Source of the DNA: an uncultured Oscillochloris sp.
Lineage (GTDB): Bacteria; Chloroflexota; Chloroflexia; Chloroflexales; Chloroflexaceae
Direction of reading: 5' to 3'
DNA: 32,743 nt
Assembly (NCBI GenBank): GCA_903877945.1
Contig: CAIRFY010000042.1
Span: 1 to 32,743 of the forward strand
The first letter of the stretch is position 1. Every line of letters starts with the position of its first letter. This document shows, in pieces, positions 4,108 to 13,889 of the stretch. A program made the translations under genes and the position numbers. The notes under the pieces were generated by a model. The model was not told the DNA's origin. It saw nothing but the letters and a program-made list of their open reading frames with translations, and made no database searches.

Positions 4108-4929
4108 TTGAGCATCTACGAGTCTTACGCCCCGATTTATGACGCCATCGGCCAGGGCGCGTTTGCGGAGAACCTGACGGTGCATATTCTGGGATCGCTG
4201 CCCGCACCGCCGCGCCGTGCGCTGGATCTGGCGTGCGGCACGGGGGCGGCGGCCTTGGCTCTGGCTGCGACCGGGGCGCAGGTGGTGGGCGTGGATCGTT
4301 CGTCGGCGATGCTGCGGATCGCCCGTGCCCGCGCCCGTGATCGCGGCCTATCGGTGCGCTGGGTGGCCGCTGATATGCGCAGCCTGGGCCAGCGCACAGC
4401 GGCGCGTGGTGCGCTTCGCCCGGCCTCCTTCGACCTAATCACCTGCCTGTACGATAGCCTCAACTACCTTGCCGACCCGCACGATCTGGCGACGGTCTGC
4501 GCGGGCGTGGCTCGCCTGTTGCGCCCCGGCGGTCGGTTTGTGTTCGATCTAAACACGGTTTATGAGTTCGAAATGTGGGACGAAACCGACCAGGTTGTTT
4601 GTGACTCGCCCGACATGTTGGTCTACAACCAACTGAGCTACGACGCCGAGCAGCGCATCGCCAAGGGGCGGATCGTCTGGTTTGTGCGCGAGATCGACCA
4701 CTGGTGGCGCGGCGAGGAGATCCACGAGGAGCGCTGGTGGAGCGATGACGAGGTGGTGTCGGCCCTGGGCGCGGCGGGGCTACGGGTGGCGGCGCGGCGC
4801 ACGCCGACGTGGGAGCCAGCGCCCGCCGAGGCGCCCAGGGTAGTGTACGAGGCGTGTGCGCTAACCCTCGCGGAAGATCCGCTCGATGGCCGCCCGGCTG
4901 AGGGCGCGGTAGATATTGCGCAGAGCTAG
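4108..4929 (+). CDS. Class I SAM-dependent methyltransferase
   Basis: MSIYESYAPIYDAIGQ...ALDLACGTGAAALALAATGAQVVGVDRSSAMLRIAR...FDLITCLYDSLNYL; TTG start at 4108 with AGGAG at 4099-4103. The ORF call starting at 4042 begins inside the repeat. Confidence 0.85.
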   Translation: MSIYESYAPIYDAIGQGAFAENLTVHILGSLPAPPRRALDLACGTGAAALALAATGAQVVGVDRSSAMLRIARARARDRGLSVRWVAADMRSLGQRTAARGALRPASFDLITCLYDSLNYLADPHDLATVCAGVARLLRPGGRFVFDLNTVYEFEMWDETDQVVCDSPDMLVYNQLSYDAEQRIAKGRIVWFVREIDHWWRGEEIHEERWWSDDEVVSALGAAGLRVAARRTPTWEPAPAEAPRVVYEACALTLAEDPLDGRPAEGAVDIAQS

Positions 4930-5721
4930 TTCGCTCTCGCCGGGGGGCGGGCCGTAGCGACGTAGCAAGGCCGTCTCCACCTCGGGGGCGACGATATGCG
5001 ATGTCAACTCGGCCAGTTCGGGGCCAGGCTCGTCGAAGGAGCCGAGTTGGTCGGCCAGGGCGGGCACCACCTCGACCGGCGCTACCGTCACGCTGACCGG
5101 ATCGGTCGCCTCGGCCCGGCGGGCGCGTAGGGCGGCGATAATCTGATCCTTGCTGCGCCCGCGCAGTTCGAAGATCAGGAAGGGATCCTCGTCGAAGCGT
5201 TCGCCGAGCAGGAAGTAGACGGCGGCGATGTGTTTGCAAGGGTTGGCGAAGTCTGGGCACGAGCAGGTGGTTGCCAAGTCACCAGAGTGCGCCGGGAACA
5301 GGTCAACGTCCGCCGCCGCAAACGCCTGCTCGATCTCCTGGGGCATCTCGCCGGCCAGGAGCTTGGCGGCGAAGATCGCCTGCTCGGACATCGCATCGGT
5401 GGCCTGCTCCCACTGCGCCTTTGAGAGCGGGATGATCGAGATCGTCACCTTGTAGGGTGTGCGCTGCGAACCCTGCACACGCGCAGCTACCTGGCCGGAT
5501 GCGATATCGATATTCAGCACAGACCCGTTGCGGGCGTAGCTGCGGCCACGGGTGAGCCGACTGCCGAAGCCGAATCCCTCCAGCACGCTGATCCAGCGTT
5601 TGGCCCACCACGACTCGCCGAAGTCGCCGCGCTGGCTCTTGGCCTTGATCCCGTCGGCGGGGATGCGCGGGCGGCGCTCCGGCCAACTCTCGTTATATCT
5701 GCTGCCTTTATGGCGGGGCAT
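4861..5721 (-). CDS. SWIM zinc-finger family protein
   Basis: SWIM motif TTCSCPDFANPCKHIAAVYFLLGERFDEDPF; N-term MPRHKGSRYNESWPERRPRIPADGIKAKSQRGDFGESWWAKRWI typical of SWIM proteins that partner SNF2 helicases; ATG at 5721 preceded by GAGGAG. Confidence 0.88.
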   Translation of the reverse strand: MPRHKGSRYNESWPERRPRIPADGIKAKSQRGDFGESWWAKRWISVLEGFGFGSRLTRGRSYARNGSVLNIDIASGQVAARVQGSQRTPYKVTISIIPLSKAQWEQATDAMSEQAIFAAKLLAGEMPQEIEQAFAAADVDLFPAHSGDLATTCSCPDFANPCKHIAAVYFLLGERFDEDPFLIFELRGRSKDQIIAALRARRAEATDPVSVTVAPVEVVPALADQLGSFDEPGPELAELTSHIVAPEVETALLRRYGPPPGESELALRNIYRALSRAAIERIFREG

Positions 5722-12300: not shown

Positions 12301-13889
12301 AGTATCCCCAGGTCGCCCTCGGCGTCCACGCCACCGAAGGCCAAGCCAGCGGGCAGCCCGTCGGAGATGCCGCCGAGCCCCATGCGCAGCAGTTCGGCCA
12401 TGCTCAGTTCGCCGCCCTTGGTGAACAGTTCCATCGCCTTGCGGGCCTGCTCGGGGTCGAGGACCACCCACTCGCCGCGCACCTGGACGAGGGGCTGCTT
12501 CAGCTCGACGAGGCGCTCGAACTCGGCGCGGTCGATTGGCTGCTCACCAACGCTGAGTTCCCAGCGAAAGTCGATCATACTCTGAAAGCTCAGGCGACCA
12601 GGGCCGTCGTTGCGCTTCATCTTACGCGGGGATGCTTTAGCGCGGGCCTTGAGGCGACCAGAGTTGCCCCACCACGCGGGTACCAGCACGCCAAAGCCGC
12701 TCTGTTCCAGCAGCGGAGCGGCGTCCTTGAGGAAGCTAAACGCCTCCTCCACATTCAGGCTGGCGTGGTCGGGAGCCTTGCCACGCAGGCTGCGCTCGAT
12801 AGGCGAGGCCAGACGGGCAGCAAAGCCCAGGCCGCGCAGCAGCCGCTCCTGCGGGTGGTCGAAGCGCCGGTCGAGGTAGGAGAAGTGCTGGCCGCGCTCG
12901 CGCCAGAGTTGGGCGGCGGGTACCAGCAGGCTCGGGTCGTCGGTGGCCTGGAGCAGGTAGCTGAGCGACCAGGGTTCACTGGCCTCAGTCGGCGGCTCCA
13001 GCCGGAAGGTGATGCGGAAGCTCTCGTCGCCGGCCACTTGCTCCTGACCGGCCCACGCCTGCCACGCCTTAAACAGTTCGTCGGCGGGGCGACCGCGCAG
13101 AGAGAGCCCAGGGTCGCGGCCAAGCAGGGCGACCATCCAGGCTGAGCCGGGAGTAGACGGGATGCTGCGCCACACGCTAAGCTGCGCGGAAGCGGTCGGG
13201 TCATCGGCGGCGATCTGACGGGCGAGGGCGTCCACGGCGGCGGCAAGGAAGCTATCGACGATGGTGCGCGGCGCGGGGGCGGCAGCCGGGTCTTCGGTGA
13301 TGGCGCGGCAGAGGGCGGGCATTCCGCTGCGCAGGGCCGCGATCTTACGGGCGGTGGCAGGGACAGGCCGTGGCTCCCAGCAGGCCCGCAGGCTGCCGCT
13401 CTCACGCACCAGCGCGGGGAGGATCTGCTGACCGGCCACCAGTTCCACGGCCAGCAGCGCGGCGGTGCGCCAGACTCGCAGGTCGGCCCCAATGCCGTGG
13501 TCGGGGGAGGGAGGCAGCAGCAGGTCAAGCGCCTGGGCCGCACTGAGCAGCAGGCCACGCACGCGCCAGGGGGCCAGAGTCGGCACGCCCTCGGGGATCT
13601 CGGCTCCGGCCTGGCGCAGTTCGCGCAGCGGCAAGGGCGCACCGCCCACCGAGGGCAGCCAGATCGTCTGCTCGGCGTGGGCCATCGTGCCCGCGCCCGG
13701 ATGTAGCTCGCGCAGGCGCTCATACAGCGCCTCGGGCTGAGCGTGGGCCGGGTGGGATAGGTGCCCTGGTCGTCGTCGCTGTCGTCCGCGCCGCGCCACC
13801 CGCTCGGCCAATTCGCCCCACAAGAAAAGCCGCCCCTCACTGGGTAGCCATGTGCCGTGTATCACGGCGGGGAGGGCCGCATTGGACAT
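9381..13889 (-). CDS. SNF2-family DEAD/DEAH helicase interrupted by an in-frame intein
   Basis: SNF2 motifs [32 protein letters not shown]^T, [88 protein letters not shown]; intein splits GLGK from TAEAISLLL. Confidence 0.93.
   Translation of the reverse strand: [1502 protein letters not shown]
10719..12137 (-). other. Intein with LAGLIDADG-type homing endonuclease (473 aa), inserted in Walker A between K and T
   Basis: N-terminal block [22 protein letters not shown]; block B [13 protein letters not shown]; endonuclease motifs [14 protein letters not shown] and [12 protein letters not shown]; block F/[26 protein letters not shown] followed by +1 Thr. Confidence 0.95.
10841..10970. repeat. 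Family A repeat, copy A3, located inside the intein coding sequence
   Basis: aaggagtctgctgtcgctcagccctcaccccccagccccctctccatgaacgggagaggg...; encodes in-frame [46 protein letters not shown] on the minus strand. Confidence 0.88.

Follow-up and report, generated by a model that had tools for sequence, protein, structure and literature searches.

The stretch of DNA analysed here, hereafter the window, spans 32,743 nucleotides of contig CAIRFY010000042.1 from an uncultured Oscillochloris sp. (Chloroflexota). It carries four co-directional minus-strand open reading frames (ORFs) encoding, in this order, an SNF2-family helicase, a RecQ-family helicase, a DprA-like protein and a SWIM Zn-finger protein, with the Pfam domains SNF2-rel_dom plus DUF3670, DEAD plus Helicase_C, DNA_processg_A and SWIM, respectively (Table 1). 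The two inner genes form the cassette that concerns us most. RecQ and DprA-like genes are 36 bp apart (7068-7103), 11 bp (5722-5732) separate the DprA-like stop codon from the SWIM ATG, and the gap between SNF2 and RecQ measures 132 bp. An earlier note on this DNA had described this arrangement and its tight packing, and our ORF coordinates and the Pfam assignments agree with it. A sigma-70 scan of 4800-9600 returned no promoter, a scan which says little for a Chloroflexota genome; the SWIM gene is now probably co-transcribed with the DprA-like gene.

Table 1. Features of the locus, with positions in the window.
Feature	Position	Strand	Size	Basis
SNF2-family helicase (DUF3670 and SNF2 motor), intein-interrupted; ancestral neighbour of SWIM	9381-13889	-	1502 aa	Pfam/NCBIfam
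LAGLIDADG intein in the SNF2 Walker A	10719-12137	-	473 aa	Intein_splicing, LAGLIDADG_3, TIGR01443/TIGR01445
Palindrome in the SNF2-PsyrT gap	9266-9340 (outer arms 9248-9262/9336-9350)	strandless		Dispersed repeat
PsyrT/RqlH: RecQ-family helicase with C-terminal phosphoribosyltransferase (PRTase)-like domain	7104-9248	-	714 aa	PADLOC PsyrT
Predicted PRTase domain of PsyrT, about residues 545-714	7107-7616	-		Alignment of 21 relatives, AlphaFold2/Foldseek, PDB profiles
PsyrA/RqlI: DprA-like (SLOG Rossmann) putative antitoxin, C-terminal winged-helix-like region	5733-7067	-	444 aa	PADLOC PsyrA
SWIM Zn-finger protein; ancestral neighbour of SNF2	ORF 4861-5736, ATG at 5721 (gene 4861-5721)	-		PF04434

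Judged from its sequence, the RecQ-PRTase/DprA-like cassette is PsyrTA (also RqlHI), a known toxin-antitoxin system which is listed as anti-phage. The RecQ protein matches the PADLOC profile PsyrT along its full length (969 bits; residues 24-711 on profile positions 6-683 of 689), and the DprA-like protein likewise matches PsyrA (430 bits; residues 8-426 on positions 3-395 of 398). PsyrTA was reportedly described by Sberro et al. in 2013. RqlHI was characterized by Russell and Mulvey in 2015, with rqlH upstream of rqlI (PMC4670107). In agreement, PsyrT lies immediately upstream of PsyrA on the same strand in the window, and this order is kept in most of the other PsyrTA loci that we examined. 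Identity to an RqlHI-type pair from an E. coli plasmid reaches 53% over 703 aa for PsyrT and 40% over 442 aa for PsyrA. The helicase part of PsyrT shows a Walker A K69, a DEAH D168 and Zn cysteines, and when aligned to the E. coli protein its K69, D168 and DMVD correspond to K49, D148 and DIVD of RqlH, the residues whose mutation alters RqlH activity (PMC4670107). The same study found that the PRTase domain is required for RqlH toxicity and that RqlI binding depends on this domain. Two observations on other loci may be added here. In E. coli, an RqlHI-type pair sits inside a type I restriction-modification operon, flanked by its S and R genes; one such copy is plasmid-borne (L128, 1-8590) and another chromosomal (L130, 4694-14773). 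In addition, PsyrA occurs without a detectable full PsyrT alongside at four loci (L071, 9350-10669; L112, 8290-9150; L113, 7902-8968; L122, 8427-9278), and at L113 just a 38-residue match to the PsyrT C-terminus is left beside PsyrA, which looks like the remnant of a decayed toxin.

The C-terminus of the RecQ protein, for which the earlier note had proposed a PRTase-like domain, gave no Pfam PRTase match and a weak GntX/ComF-type match in NCBIfam. The region contains a motif resembling a phosphoribosyl pyrophosphate (PRPP) loop, DDMVDSQWT (7185-7211), its D-D-x-x-D-S PRTase motif is invariant among 21 aligned relatives, and PDB profiles matched PRPP synthetases and PurF. Structure prediction with AlphaFold2 produced a PRTase-like model with a predicted local distance difference test (pLDDT) score of 87, for which Foldseek returned ComF, APRT, ShosT and PurF among its matches. 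The proposal is thus supported by the predicted structure. The PsyrA model reached a pLDDT of 75, confidence being low in a linker around residues 314-369, and its closest folds are ShosA (8zva) and DprA, which were also found by profile matching.

The comparison with relatives suggests how the cassette came to lie at this site. In the five congeners the SWIM gene is always present (77-94% identical) with SNF2 directly upstream, SNF2 orthologues are 81-96% identical in their extein parts, and PsyrA is absent (5/5). The spacers between SNF2 and SWIM in these genomes are short and unrelated. Where additional relative loci showed both genes, SNF2 again preceded SWIM, either immediately or by a few hundred bases, and in none of them did PsyrTA intervene. 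Homology to the congeners runs out at the stop codon of SNF2 and, across the cassette, at the start of SWIM. The guanine-cytosine content of the PsyrTA genes is lower (0.58-0.59) than that of SWIM and the SNF2 exteins (0.66-0.70), and the presence of PsyrTA is patchy, with about 12 of 100 relatives and, in the phylum, 32 of 301 and 37 of 399. We therefore read the segment 5733-9248 as a PsyrTA toxin-antitoxin/defence pair that this lineage gained by insertion between its resident SNF2 and SWIM genes, a reading to which we give a probability of about 0.9; SNF2 and SWIM are best seen as bystanders split apart by PsyrTA.

Several points weigh against this reading. The RqlH-RqlI pair differs from classical toxin-antitoxin systems in several respects (PMC4670107), and in a study of native E. 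coli a PsyrTA gave no phage protection but a growth defect (PMC12409345). Template modelling scores are modest (0.3-0.5) for the structures that Foldseek matched to the PRTase domain. Lastly, the assembly consists of 696 contigs, and the left junction of the cassette holds a dispersed repeat that is often found at contig ends.

By analogy with characterised relatives, PsyrT would load on DNA and track along it through its RecQ helicase, while its C-terminal PRTase would be genotoxic or growth-inhibiting if unchecked. PsyrA, whose core is a DprA-like Rossmann module, would restrain the PRTase domain by binding it, and infection or an unusual DNA structure may lift this restraint so that growth stops. 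This copy may plausibly act against phages, although such a role is not secure, and abortive infection is somewhat favoured as its outcome. The alternative that best survives is a function in DNA repair or DNA uptake, where the pair would maintain genome integrity as RqlHI may do, instead of acting in phage defence. A beneficial, undefined function on DNA has been argued for RqlHI, and many genomes carry RqlH alone (PMC4670107); in the same direction, PsyrT appears without a detected PsyrA homologue in the fetched stretches L165, L171, L178, L179 and L180. However, the distribution is patchy and accessory, the system is present on plasmids, and the E. coli copies sit in a restriction-modification operon, so that we hold a repair or uptake role to be rather unlikely. 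A search of phages with PsyrT gave partial matches, mostly to the helicase part, and none covering 80% of the protein.

The earlier note had gone further and proposed that SNF2 and SWIM act together with the cassette as one composite anti-mobile-element system. The shared strand and the tight packing speak for it, and so does the finding of SWIM-SNF2 fusions within a few kb in 2 of about 50 other PsyrTA, PsyrT or PsyrA loci (about 747 kb), which were the only SNF2 genes there. The fusion of L119 (12760-16092) is divergent and lies about 160 bp away from PsyrTA, whereas that of L120 (3646-7020) is on the same strand, downstream of PsyrTA. The 18 PsyrTA genomes used to estimate SNF2 density, about 78 Mb in all, contain 13 SNF2 domains; at this density one expects 0.12 SNF2 genes, and stricter counting lowers the figure to 0.05-0.08 (P 0.001-0.007), but the density set includes the L119 and L120 genomes themselves, the loci are related and the counts are tiny. 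We take the excess of SWIM-SNF2 near PsyrTA as a lead only. A possible extension is that PsyrTA recurrently teams with SWIM-SNF2 helicases, the three independent Chloroflexota arrangements (the nested one of the window, the divergent one of L119 and the tandem one of L120) reflecting a functional partnership in which a SWIM-SNF2 remodeller would supply or clear the DNA structure sensed by PsyrT/PsyrA; we consider this improbable.

The composite system itself is likewise improbable, and we rejected it because the four-gene linkage, which the earlier note had itself set as a test, is not conserved across the genomes examined. PsyrTA does not separate SNF2 from SWIM in any of the five congeners, nor at any other relative locus where the two genes can be seen together. 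Conversely, a separate SNF2-SWIM pair adjoining PsyrTA was seen in none of the other PsyrTA genomes examined, and the pair of the window type was missing from the PsyrTA loci surveyed in the order (L066-L075) and in the phylum (L106-L124, L161-L181). The L119 and L120 arrangements differ from one another and from the window, and the SNF2 protein matches ZorD and DpdE largely on the shared helicase motor, far under the NCBIfam cut-offs. Elsewhere in the phylum the surroundings of PsyrTA are unrelated. A conserved gene upstream of PsyrT, suspected from ORF sizes, was also discarded, since the scanned upstream genes are unrelated: they encode HerA, an amine oxidase, a GGDEF protein, a histidine kinase, an NB-ARC/TPR protein, alanyl-tRNA synthetase and type I restriction R. 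Literature searches on the ShosTA mechanism and on SNF2/SWIM returned nothing usable.

It may also be asked whether the assembly joined PsyrTA to SNF2 artificially through the palindrome in the gap between them. The palindrome has 32-nt arms that are 97% complementary, and the genome assembly contains 66 occurrences of its arm sequence, many of the copies being at contig ends. Such a chimera is highly improbable because both flanks keep the congener order, with a methyltransferase and a kinase beyond SWIM and DAHP synthase beyond SNF2. A misjoin would need to restore this ancestral order by chance, and the junction between PsyrA and SWIM has no repeat.

The SNF2 gene contains an intein which, like the palindrome of the SNF2-PsyrT gap, had gone unnoticed in the earlier note. 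It splits the Walker A motif (DDMGLGK^[C...HN]^TAEA). An intein 55% identical to it occupies the same SNF2 site in L063, and none was seen in the other relatives, congeners included, where that SNF2 region was in view. The intein also contains, in frame at 10865-10972, a degenerate copy of a palindromic repeat, CCCTCTCCC...GGGAGAGGG, of which the genome has hundreds of copies.

Among known systems, the window pair resembles PsyrTA/RqlHI in its T-A gene order, full-length domain architecture, conserved helicase and PRTase residues and identity to the E. coli pair, and differs in its Chloroflexota host and its site between SNF2 and SWIM. The cassette can now be filed under a named system whose residues are testable, and the comparison with the empty site shows that close packing of genes in a single genome is not enough to define a four-gene system. 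The nesting of a Chloroflexota PsyrTA in another gene pair parallels that of the E. coli RqlHI-type pair in its restriction-modification operon. The resident genes recall the sll1366/SCO1167-type SNF2 helicases beside a SWIM gene, given that in the relatives of the window SNF2 is directly followed by SWIM, and NCBIfam names sll1366 an intein-prone helicase; however, both the window SNF2 and that of an intein-less congener score under the NCBIfam equivalog cut-offs, and the window pair is split by PsyrTA. With housekeeping DprA/Smf, PsyrA shares the Rossmann (SLOG) core. It scores 87.6 bits against an NCBIfam DprA equivalog cut-off of 191, and a second, canonical DprA is encoded in the same genome (contig C114), so the housekeeping protein can be ruled out. 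In ShosTA, too, a DprA-like antitoxin is paired with a PRTase toxin; both ShosA and ShosT were among the structural matches, and shosTA, syrTA and rqlHI were already grouped as DprA-antitoxin systems in a 2022 paper on P2/P4 hotspots (PMC9122126). The earlier note was right about a helicase-PRTase/DprA-like cassette of toxin-antitoxin/defence type, but its family is PsyrTA/RqlHI and not that of a new ShosTA relative. Membership in ShosTA has next to no likelihood and was ruled out: the PsyrA profile outscores ShosA by 430 to 78 bits in PADLOC, PADLOC lists no ShosT match for the RecQ protein, and the toxin, matched by PsyrT over helicase and PRTase at full length, bears a RecQ helicase.

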